From an uncultured Leptolyngbyaceae cyanobacterium (GTDB taxonomy: Bacteria; Cyanobacteriota; Cyanobacteriia; Leptolyngbyales; Leptolyngbyaceae), in NCBI GenBank assembly GCA_938023035.1, contig CALIDI010000001.1, positions 1 through 64,000 on the forward strand: a stretch of 64,000 bases of DNA. Direction: 5' to 3'. The notes beneath the pieces were generated by a model that ran no database searches, was not told the DNA's origin, and saw only the letters and a list, made by a program, of their open reading frames with translations. Shown in pieces: positions 10,564-14,713 of this stretch; position 1 is the first letter of the stretch, and every line of letters begins with the position of its first letter. Position numbers and translations under genes: made by a program.

Positions 10564-11364
10564 TTAACCCCGATCAGGGAAAAGTACTTCCTGCTCTTTG
10601 GCAAAAATATAGTCATAATCAAAGACCAGTGATCCTTCGTGACGAATAATTGAAAACCCAAAGTTACTGGTTACTTCTGTCGTAAAAGTTGCCATTGCCA
10701 GCTCAATGAGCTTTTTTTCACTCAGATTTGGGCTTTTGACATAGTAATCTCTGCGAGCAAAGAAAAGGTGTTCATCCTTTGGTGTAATGATTTTATTGAT
10801 CTTATGGGTATGTTGAATCGGGCGAATATAGGTGTTGAGAAAATCTTCTTGATTACGCTGCAGCCGATAAAGCTTTTCCTGTTGATACCAACTCATCCGA
10901 AACATCATTTTAATTAGCTCAAAACCCAGAATGTAGTTGAAAACATGATTGCGCTCCTCAATATTCATAACTAATTTGAGGGCTGATTCAAGATATAAAT
11001 CAGGCTGTCGTCGCACATCCTGGGCTGAGTGAATGTAAAACTGTTTGATATATTTTCGGAGGAGACTACTATTTAGATCCGTGTTAAGCCGAAACTTTTC
11101 CAAATGGGCTTTAACTTTTTCCTTTGTATCCCGATCCTCTAAAACCTTGGAAACAATGCCATCCGCTGTATAGTCGTCGAGAAATTCTGCCCGGGCTTCG
11201 GGTGTTGCCCCACACATTAGGTGGCAAAGAGAGAGCACATAGCGGCGCTCCTGCCATGACAAACTCTCTACCCACTGTTTGGCAGCAGTTGGCATGTGAA
11301 ATAAGATGCCTTCAGCCAGATCGGCCTGCTGATAAACAGATTGGACGTTGGCTGGTCCAGTCAT
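10564..11364 (-). CDS. Conserved cyanobacterial hypothetical protein
   Basis: 266 aa soluble protein with no signal peptide. It is rich in charged and aromatic residues, with a mostly helical N-terminal half (WVESLSWQERRYVLSLCHLM) and a C-terminal part that looks alpha/beta (FATTEVTSNFGFSIIRHEG-like, then VFDYDYIFAKEQEVLFP). I do not recognise a characterised family. Codon use matches its neighbours and there is no competing ORF of similar length. It is separated from the caspase-like gene upstream by about 190 bp and may be transcribed independently. Confidence 0.75.
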   Translation of the reverse strand: MTGPANVQSVYQQADLAEGILFHMPTAAKQWVESLSWQERRYVLSLCHLMCGATPEARAEFLDDYTADGIVSKVLEDRDTKEKVKAHLEKFRLNTDLNSSLLRKYIKQFYIHSAQDVRRQPDLYLESALKLVMNIEERNHVFNYILGFELIKMMFRMSWYQQEKLYRLQRNQEDFLNTYIRPIQHTHKINKIITPKDEHLFFARRDYYVKSPNLSEKKLIELAMATFTTEVTSNFGFSIIRHEGSLVFDYDYIFAKEQEVLFPDRG

Positions 11365-11554: not shown

Positions 11555-14035
11555 TCAAGAGCGACGACCTGATAGCTTTGCTAATTGATCCCTAGCATTT
11601 TTTTGCATCACGCGATTGCCCTGCTGCTCGTAAAGCTCGACAGCCTGGTTAAGATCCTGGGTTGCTGCCAAAATATCTCCTTTGGATGCATAGGCTAGCC
11701 CGCGATTGTAGATGGCATCGGCATAATTGCTCTCTCGCTTGAGCGCTTCGTTATAATCAGCGATCGCTGCATCCGCTTTATCTGCAAACAAATGCGCATT
11801 GCCCCGGTTGGTATATGCCCCTGCCAAGAAGAGATTGCCCAGCCCCTCCTGGGTTGCCACTTGAATCGCCCGATCGTAATCTTTAATGGCTTCTTCATAG
11901 TCGTTTTTGTTGGCGTTGGGGAGTTTTAGGCGAGCATTGGCCCGGTTAATCAGCGCCTCTGGCATTCCCGGTTCTCGCCGCACGACGGCCTCCGCATCGG
12001 CAAAGGCGCGTTGGTAATCGCCCTTGTCGTAATGAACATGACTCCGATTACTCAGGGCAATTAACTCATTGCGGGTATTGGGTGACTTGGTAATCACTGC
12101 CGTATAGTCTGCAATAGCCTTGTCATATTCCCCGAGTTTGGTGTGAACGATGCCGCGATTAATATAGGCTGCCACTAAATTAGGGTCAAGCTCAATCGCC
12201 CGGTTGTAGGCCGCGATCGCATCGGTATACTCCTGTGTTTGCATTTTGCTACGGCCAATGTCAAACGCCTCATTTGGGTTCGTAATCGCATTCATAGAGC
12301 CACCCGCCACCGGCAAACGATTCCTCAGACTTGGCAGCAGCACAGCAGCGGCAGTTCCGACCAGAGTCGCAATCAACAGTAGCGGCACTAACCAGTCAAT
12401 AATAAACGGGCGACTACTGGATGGTTGCCTTTCGGTAACAGGGGCCAGTGGGGGTGGGGTGGGGCTAGGGGGCGCTTGTACTTCTGTGACGGGTGGTGAG
12501 GAAGGCTCTGGAGCCGCCACCTCGCCAACCCCCTTATTCTGTACAGGTGCTCCGCCCTGAAAAGCGGTGCGTTCTAAATGTTCAAGCAACCGCTCAAGAT
12601 TGGGTGAGGCGGAGAGCGGAGAATCTATTCCTGAAGGCATCGATTCGGGGGGTTCGACGAGGGGTTCGACAACTTTGGTCGGGTGAGGTTCGTTGATCGG
12701 TGCTTCAGGGGGAACATCATGGGCAACGAGTTGTTGAATCCGATAGACAATTCGGTGCTCGGCGGCTTCAACCTCATCGTTAGTTAGGGCTAGCAATGTT
12801 TGCAGTTGAACTAAACCCTGGCGATCATTCTCAGTCAGGGGATATTGGCGCAGTAAAGCTGCCAAGAAAGCCTGCTCATAACGGGCCAGGTTTTTCAGGT
12901 GGAGTTCTCGTTGTTGCTGGTGCTCGTCCACAAACGTTGCTACATCAATAACGGCGGTTTGCTCATCGGTCAGGTAAAGGGCCTGTTTTAAGGTTTGCAT
13001 TGCCTGCGGCATCGGCTCCAGACGATCGGCTTGGGCCATGAGGGCAGCCAGATGCTGGCGATAGTGCCGCAGCCGCTGATGGTATTCCCACCAGGGGCGC
13101 AAAACCTCAGATTCGATTTGCTCTGCCTGCTGGGATGATAGCTCAAAAATTCGCTGGATATCGGTCAAAAAGTTGCGCCCTGTCAAAACCCGACGGTTTT
13201 CTGAATCAACCTCAACCGAGACTCTGTATTGTTCAATTAGGCGAGCATATTGCAGGGTTGACCGGGATGCTGCAACCCGGTTTAGAGGGGCCTGGGCTAG
13301 TTCAATGGCTCCTAAAAGGGTTGGCACAATTGCTGGGGCGGCAATCTGTAGGCGGGTTTGGGCATAGGTGTGCAAATTTGCTACCGTCATAATGCCGTTG
13401 CCATCAATGTCAGCATAGCCCCGTTGCAAACCCTCGGCAAAGTAATGAAGGTAGCCCCACAGATCAGGTGGATGCAAGTCCATAGGCGCATGATGAGTAT
13501 GGCTATGGGCTACCAAAACCAGGCGATCGCAGGACTTTACTGGACGGGCTGCCGTCGGGTCAAAGCCGCTATGTGCCTGTGTGAGCAACCCTTGCAGATT
13601 AACAGGCGATTCAGGGATGCTGGTTGAATGGAGATGATGACGAAAAATACAGTCTAAGATGACAATCTGCCGTTGTGCAGGGCTGCGATCCATTACCAGT
13701 CGCAAAAATTCACTGGAGAGGGTTGTGCCTAGCCAAACATTGCCTTTGGCATCGGCGTTACTATCAGCCTGAAGAAAGTGCAGGCTCCCGTTTGTTTGGA
13801 GAGCGTAGCCTGTCAACACCAGCAAGACGAGATCCTGGGGTTGCCGTTCTCTAAAAACTTGCTCAACGGTCTCTTGAACCTCTGCCAGGGGGCGATCGCA
13901 GCACAAGTCACTCTGAAACGGAGGATTGGCTTGCTGCAATGCCGCATGTAGTTCTGCCAACCCTTGATCTGTTGCGGCTAACCCCAGGTCTGGCTGATAG
14001 TGATTGACCCCAATGAGGAGTGCCACTTGATTCAT
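11555..14035 (-). CDS. Caspase-fold (orthocaspase-like) TPR membrane protein, dyad lost
   Basis: 826 aa from ATG 14035 (a TTG lies three codons upstream). Residues 1-250 have the caspase-like p20 pattern: VALLIGVNHYQ at the start, a beta strand QDLVLLVLTGYAL where active members have a catalytic His in SGHG, and QIVILDCIFRH where active members have DCC-x-SG. Here Tyr77 replaces His and Ile130 occupies the catalytic Cys position (Cys129 is the preceding, non-catalytic Cys), so it is predicted to be proteolytically inactive. A coiled region and a Pro-rich linker follow, then one membrane span (DWLVPLLLIATLVGTAAAVL, about residues 540-562) and about six TPR units (IGRSKMQTQEYTDAIAAYNR, AAYINRGIVHTKLGEYDKAI). 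It is probably a membrane-anchored scaffold. It is divergent from psb28, with starts 343 bp apart. Confidence 0.85.
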   Translation of the reverse strand: MNQVALLIGVNHYQPDLGLAATDQGLAELHAALQQANPPFQSDLCCDRPLAEVQETVEQVFRERQPQDLVLLVLTGYALQTNGSLHFLQADSNADAKGNVWLGTTLSSEFLRLVMDRSPAQRQIVILDCIFRHHLHSTSIPESPVNLQGLLTQAHSGFDPTAARPVKSCDRLVLVAHSHTHHAPMDLHPPDLWGYLHYFAEGLQRGYADIDGNGIMTVANLHTYAQTRLQIAAPAIVPTLLGAIELAQAPLNRVAASRSTLQYARLIEQYRVSVEVDSENRRVLTGRNFLTDIQRIFELSSQQAEQIESEVLRPWWEYHQRLRHYRQHLAALMAQADRLEPMPQAMQTLKQALYLTDEQTAVIDVATFVDEHQQQRELHLKNLARYEQAFLAALLRQYPLTENDRQGLVQLQTLLALTNDEVEAAEHRIVYRIQQLVAHDVPPEAPINEPHPTKVVEPLVEPPESMPSGIDSPLSASPNLERLLEHLERTAFQGGAPVQNKGVGEVAAPEPSSPPVTEVQAPPSPTPPPLAPVTERQPSSSRPFIIDWLVPLLLIATLVGTAAAVLLPSLRNRLPVAGGSMNAITNPNEAFDIGRSKMQTQEYTDAIAAYNRAIELDPNLVAAYINRGIVHTKLGEYDKAIADYTAVITKSPNTRNELIALSNRSHVHYDKGDYQRAFADAEAVVRREPGMPEALINRANARLKLPNANKNDYEEAIKDYDRAIQVATQEGLGNLFLAGAYTNRGNAHLFADKADAAIADYNEALKRESNYADAIYNRGLAYASKGDILAATQDLNQAVELYEQQGNRVMQKNARDQLAKLSGRRS

Positions 14036-14377: not shown

Positions 14378-14713
14378 ATGGTAGCTAGCATTCAGTTTTC
14401 TCGCGGAATTGACGAAGCAGTTGTGCCGGATGTACGGGTCACGCGATCGCCCGACGGCAGCAACGGTACCGCGACCTTTTACTTTCAAAATCCAAACGCA
14501 CTCAGCAGCCCTACGGAAGAAATTACTGGGATGTATCTAGTTGATGAAGAAGGTGAGATTAGCACTCGCGAAGTCAAAGCCAAGTTTGTCAATGGGCAAC
14601 CTGAGGCATTAGAAGCGGTTTATATCATGCGATCGCAGCAAGAGTTTGAGAGGTTTGTGCGATTTATGGATCGCTATGCCGAGCAAAATGGCCTGGGCTT
14701 CAGCAAGTCATAA
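14378..14713 (+). CDS. psb28: Photosystem II assembly factor Psb28
   Basis: 111 aa protein of the Psb28 family, which binds assembling photosystem II (the RC47 stage) on the cytoplasmic face and shields it during biogenesis. The family features are present: IQFSRGIDE at the N terminus, [29 protein letters not shown] and [16 protein letters not shown], ending in [16 protein letters not shown] 14378 is chosen because it is preceded by AAGGA at good spacing; a TTG three codons upstream is less likely. The length is normal. It appears monocistronic. Confidence 0.96.

Follow-up and report, generated by a model that had tools for sequence, protein, structure and literature searches.

Pseudo-orthocaspases, orthocaspases in which the catalytic His-Cys dyad has been replaced, are the described proteins with which the present locus is most readily compared. 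As far as the available text of the respective papers goes, 193 of them have been reported from cyanobacteria, mostly with Tyr-Ser (YS) or Tyr-Asn (YN) at the dyad positions and without further domains, while the others are scattered, with YA, FS and YY as rare dyads and YG and HG given in a table (Klemencic 2019, PMC6426788). Another paper gives 16 further dyad pairs, including YC, YQ and YH, and finds a further domain in 10 of 133 dead forms, one of which has TPR_1 (PMC8283722). Membrane segments are reported in 25 of 98 orthocaspases (PMC7475262), and caspase systems such as EACC1 have been described (PMC8195603). The orthocaspase of Synechocystis PCC 6803 is a Tyr-Gly form (PMC6426788 Table 1), and removal of SyOC results in higher tolerance of oxidative stress (PMC7889975).

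The window, i.e. the whole stretch of 64,000 nucleotides that was analysed, carries on its minus strand an intact frame (11555..14035) that encodes a protein of 826 amino acids, with an ATG start, a stop codon at 11555-11557 and no internal stops. Comparison with its relatives indicates that this is a real, selected and catalytically dead orthocaspase, and that its clade has to date been encountered in a single family. Its caspase-fold (p20-like) domain comprises residues 1-253 (13277..14035), as located by profiles, AlphaFold2 and VIA-align. Pfam C14 matches the protein below its cut-off (E 6.7e-4, 19.8 bits against 21.4), and a C14 search of the same genome at E 0.001 found six other genes but not this one. 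The NCBIfam model caspase_w_EACC1 (NF047832) matches residues 4-230 (E 6.3e-15) with 55.2 bits against a curated cut-off of 140, a score that does not place the protein among the EACC1-associated caspases, and PADLOC, run to see whether the gene belongs to a defence system, matched it solely as a generic caspase (E 0.0029). The fold is clearer in the structural prediction: an AlphaFold2 model of residues 1-447 built on a 63-row alignment has a mean pLDDT of 89.3 and a pTM of 0.83, its top 50 PDB hits by Foldseek comprise MALT1 and caspases plus a single protein of Geobacter, and VIA-align superposes it on MALT1 (3uo8_B) over residues 1-253 with a Z score of 18.0 (206 residues, rmsd 2.9). The p20-like region recognized by the first-pass annotation, which had recommended structure prediction of residues 1-250 as a check, is confirmed.

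In the model, Tyr77 (codon TAC, 13805..13807) lies within the strand of residues 69-81 and Ile130 (codon ATT, 13646..13648) within the strand of residues 122-132, as expected for the dyad residues; the assignment of the two positions is based on alignment, together with this strand location. Alignment columns 71-81 have no gaps across the 63 rows, and columns 123-135 have a single gap, in row L070, just past the Cys column. The GHG of MALT1 pairs with the GHG columns of the family, where the window protein reads GYA. Tyr77 and Ile130 thus occupy the His and Cys positions just as had been claimed, and the window protein has no other His/Cys pair in these columns of the 63-row alignment. With a caspase p20 fold and a replaced His-Cys dyad, the protein qualifies as a pseudo-orthocaspase. 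The first-pass annotation, which correctly noted that both residues are replaced, had treated the additional loss of Cys as special; that part does not stand, because YS and YN, the commonest published pairs, also lack both residues (PMC6426788 and PMC8283722, in their available text). Loss of both dyad residues is already normal for pseudo-orthocaspases and is nothing new.

The comparison set consisted of 18 clade members, including the window protein, and 45 wider relatives, which are part of a larger match set. Ten loci were left out before the count of 45, namely six repeats of kept loci (L018, L022, L056, L058, L061, L066), three near-copies (L027, L029, L031) and L035, a profile match that was short; every one of the ten has the His-Cys (HC) dyad in an earlier alignment. 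Both dyad residues are present in 44 of the 45 wider relatives and in none of the 18 clade members. The one exception among the relatives, L011, lies outside the clade, has Arg-Gly in place of the dyad, and contains extra helical repeats. A search of relatives for the Tyr-Ile pair, as proposed in the first-pass annotation, gave a divided result: the Tyr is a clade trait, kept in 16 members (the other two have His, and Tyr in the Cys column), but the Cys position varies, being Tyr in seven, Cys in six, Ile in two, and Gln, Ser or His in one each. The loop that follows is altered as well: past the nucleophile column, 43 of the 45 relatives have Ser at the second residue and 42 have Gly at the third, whereas no clade member has either. 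Two residues ahead of the nucleophile, 15 clade members have Asp and the other three have Asn.

Column 25 is presumably the N-terminal pocket Asp, a placement of ours that combines the pocket residues named in PMC6426788 with residue numbering. It is Asp in 44 of the 45 relatives and, within the clade, Asp in ten members, Asn in seven and Gly only in the window protein (Gly25); the genus sister of the window protein (L067) has Gly at this column in alignments A1 and A2 and is shifted in A3, and the true count may be 9 Asp, 7 Asn and 2 Gly. Row L070 starts at a contig end without its first residues. With Gly25 at one of the two mapped pocket Asp positions, the window protein may have lost peptide binding too. 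Elsewhere in the domain, residues 209-214 (13394-13411) make up a DxDxDG-like loop, with D209 and G214 kept in all 18 clade members, that is possibly a calcium-binding candidate.

A family search gave matches somewhere in each of the 42 genomes of the source family, many through TPRs or other caspases alone, and a profile search confirmed the N-terminal part of the clade in 18 of them. One genome outside the 18 (G419) has only the C-terminal half of the gene, at a contig end. The order is represented by the same 42 genomes as the family. When 388 genomes of the class were searched, no clade member was seen in the 346 that belong to other families, and the lowest score of a clade member against the clade profile was 483.2 bits, compared with 364.5 bits for the best match outside the clade. 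These genomes are a sample of a larger class and at most four candidates were scored in each, so rare clade members may exist elsewhere.

In a tree from which six active-site columns were omitted, a branch supported at 100/100 separates the 18 clade members from the rest. The window protein pairs with its counterpart in G387, and the branch that carries the two is 1.0 changes per site long; the window row was flagged for an odd letter make-up. At minimum, the tree requires two changes at the His position, five at the Cys position, and one between a fused gene and a split gene. A single fission fits because the split set and the window pair group together (support 95/85); on the other side the support is 83/24, so the root within the clade is not secure.

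The remainder of the protein had been described in the first-pass annotation as a membrane span and six or so TPRs. Both of these parts were recovered, but a region of helical repeats at residues 255-438 (12722..13273), evident in the AlphaFold2 model, had been overlooked. It is followed by a Pro-rich linker (residues 439-544, 12404..12721; AlphaFold2, mostly with pLDDT <50) and a single membrane helix (residues 545-573, 12317..12403), which is modelled at low confidence and backed by a hydropathy maximum of 2.5 over residues 549-567. Near the C-terminus (residues 587-823, 11567..12277), TPRs are strongly recognized by Pfam, with six TPR_2 stretches, and the full-length AlphaFold2 model has thirteen helices, mostly with pLDDT >90, that are predicted to form six TPR hairpins and a cap helix, the tandem helix hairpins that characterize a TPR protein. 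The full-length model was built on a 10-row alignment (mean pLDDT 68.6, pTM 0.41), and at this pTM its domain arrangement and membrane helix should be regarded as unreliable.

The gene is fused in 11 of the 18 genomes, including G421, where it leaves the contig past the split point. In the other seven (G400, G411, G422, G423, G396, G397 and G398; L077-L083), two frames of the same strand take its place, the first encoding p20 and the first repeats (325-356 amino acids) and the second the remainder (517-574 amino acids). Sequencing error is unlikely because the split recurs in seven genomes, near residue 335-345. If the first possible start is taken, the frames overlap by 4-14 bases, with ATGA in four of the seven, which suggests translational coupling, and the split form suggests two partners that are made together. 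The seven genomes with the two-gene form thereby provide a natural test of binding between the pseudo-caspase and the membrane-TPR protein.

The orientation of the protein in the membrane was assessed from the charges that flank the best-scoring helix of each row. In 16 of 17 rows, the 15 residues on the N-terminal side of the helix contain more Lys and Arg than the 15 on its C-terminal side; in the window protein the two numbers are the same (2 versus 2). When Asp and Glu are subtracted, the net charge of the 17 rows is higher on the N-terminal side in eight, equal in eight, and lower in the window protein (0 on the N-terminal side, +2 on the C-terminal side). According to the positive-inside rule, cytoplasmic flanks of membrane helices are the more positively charged. 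The pattern weakly suggests that the pseudo-caspase is cytoplasmic and the TPRs are outside the cytoplasm.

The best explanation of these features, with a probability of about 0.58, is that the protein is a catalytically dead orthocaspase working as a membrane-tethered adaptor. The computed basis for it consists of the fold, the clade-wide loss of the dyad and of the post-nucleophile loop, purifying selection, and the domain architecture. The pseudo-caspase and helical repeats would bind a partner or peptide on the cytoplasmic side without cleaving it, the TPR superhelix would bind a second partner across the membrane, and the protein would link or sense the two sides of either the plasma membrane or the thylakoid membrane. 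The description of the protein as a membrane scaffold in the first-pass annotation is likewise an inference.

A dead p20 domain might instead serve as a decoy that pairs with an active orthocaspase and controls it, as cFLIP-L does caspase-8. This is possible but doubtful. The six other C14 genes of the same genome include four of the HC type that could be partners, the other two being dead orthocaspases with Tyr-Gly (L005) and Tyr-Asn (L006), all as read from one MAFFT alignment, and dead caspases such as cFLIP-L and TbMC4 are known to act together with live ones (PMC6426788). However, the clade profile at E 1e-30 matches nothing but the clade member itself in six of the 18 clade genomes, some of which are drafts, whereas the remaining 12 have further matches; a close active paralogue therefore seems unneeded. 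The occurrence of strains with a dead form alone has also been considered an argument for partner-free function, in the available text of PMC6426788.

Nor is the p20 domain likely to be an evolutionary relic that drifts while the TPR part alone is still important, an explanation that we consider improbable. In five close pairs of clade members, the dN/dS ratio of the p20 domain is just 0.04-0.24 (0.059, 0.036, 0.242, 0.175 and 0.116, with dS >1.4 in two), values that indicate purifying selection. All 18 genomes have an open p20 frame (its start is clipped by the contig end in G418), and the seven split loci have retained p20 as a separate gene. What a relic would explain is the variability of the Cys position and the following loop, the long branch of the window pair, and the p20 ratios that exceed those of the TPR part in both of the pairs for which the two could be compared (0.242 and 0.175 versus 0.127 and 0.109). 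Between the window protein and that of G387, which are 54% identical in amino acids over their full length, dS of the p20 domain is saturated and a ratio is unobtainable, so selection on the p20 domain of the window protein itself is judged only through its relatives; the ratios of the helical part (0.155 at dS 1.8) and the TPR part (0.156 at dS 2.8) are rough.

It is most improbable that the protein is still an active enzyme with a different nucleophile such as Cys129, the residue before the nucleophile column. Cys129 is present in 11 of the 18 clade members, and six members have Cys in the true column, but 36 of the 45 wider relatives have Cys129 as well, and the usual general base is missing wherever His has been replaced by Tyr, whereas the two members that have His are those with Tyr in the Cys column. 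On the alignment, an alternative active site formed by Cys129 or by the His cluster at residues 133-134 was ruled out.

The idea of a photosystem II assembly factor functionally tied to psb28 (14378..14713, plus strand; Pfam, NCBIfam) can be dismissed, because this divergent neighbour, which is probably not part of the system, adjoins the clade gene in only two of the 18 genomes, the window and G387, both of one genus. It is absent upstream in 14 of the other 16, whose psb28 matches are at distant positions or on different contigs; adjacency is undecidable in G418 and G423, where the contig breaks off close to the start of the gene. The first-pass annotation had suspected that the pairing was due to chance and had suggested synteny in other genomes as a check, and its suspicion is upheld by this count, which came from a search for psb28 in 19 genomes, including G419 with its C-terminal half. 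Grouping by BLASTP found no neighbour common to all loci. The commonest neighbours are a methyltransferase-like gene and a Tic22-like gene, which lie tail to tail with the clade gene at nine loci (eight of the clade, and G419); the Pfam identity of both comes from the L073 copies alone, one of which matches methyltransferase families and the other Tic22 (E 1.7e-48). These neighbours are represented by L073:4158-4967 and by relatives in L068-L072, L075, L078 and L084. A DUF6391 gene is nearby in three loci, including the window, at differing places. The 266-amino-acid frame downstream of the gene (10564-11364) has no match in Pfam up to E 1 or in NCBIfam up to E 0.1.

The helical repeats have a likeness of their own. 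When a profile of p20 and the repeats (A3) was searched against PDB sequences, the best match was TIC110 of Cyanidioschyzon (4bm5, E 8.8e-8), and a profile of the repeats only (A4) ranked the same protein first (E 3.2e-6, runner-up 0.04); the two stretches that make up the 4bm5 match are weak singly (0.054 and 0.01). Pfam Tic110 (PF16940) has no match in the same genome at E up to 10, which leaves the protein outside the TIC110 family as defined there. Over 145 genomes, PF16940 has weak matches in four, all below the cut-off, of which the best (G494) covers residues 245-342 of a frame and overlaps the residues 249-403 matched by the repeat profile. Chance seems to account for the remaining three, as two of their frames, read by eye, are gyrA-like and one is cyclase-like. 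The structure of TIC110 has been called HEAT-like and scaffold-like (Tsai 2013, PMC3823011, in its available text). The likeness may be due either to homology or to a shared HEAT-like pattern. We know of no caspase domain in TIC110. It would be a very long shot to suppose that the caspase-side repeats are ancestral to the TIC110 scaffold of chloroplast protein import and that the clade is a protein-handling scaffold of the envelope, with its Tic22-like neighbour; if it were true, the clade would show the form of TIC110 before the loss of its caspase partner.

Among known systems, TIC110 (4bm5) thus resembles the window family in being the best PDB sequence match of its helical repeats. The closest relatives found are the HC-type orthocaspases (the 45 wider relatives), in which p20 is likewise followed by these helical repeats, and which include one with TPRs too (L009), but which differ in having the His-Cys dyad in 44 of 45. 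SyOC of Synechocystis PCC 6803 is, by its published description, also a dead orthocaspase, and its knock-out has a phenotype when oxidative stress is applied (PMC7889975, in its available text). With the YS and YN clades, as far as the available text of PMC6426788 and PMC8283722 describes them, the window protein shares a caspase p20 domain with Tyr at the His position and the nucleophile Cys gone; it differs in that those clades are without other recognizable domains, whereas its YI pair is accompanied by helical repeats, a membrane helix and TPRs, and its pair, TPRs and membrane helix keep it out of their membership. The YI pair is absent from the main-text dyad lists of the same two papers, and no account of this membrane-anchored clade was found in the available text of the literature searched; its novelty is modest. 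What it adds to the published picture is that substitutions described as scattered among orthocaspases can form a coherent, selected clade with a retained Tyr and a drifting Cys position, a combination that argues for a binding role of the dead p20 domain.
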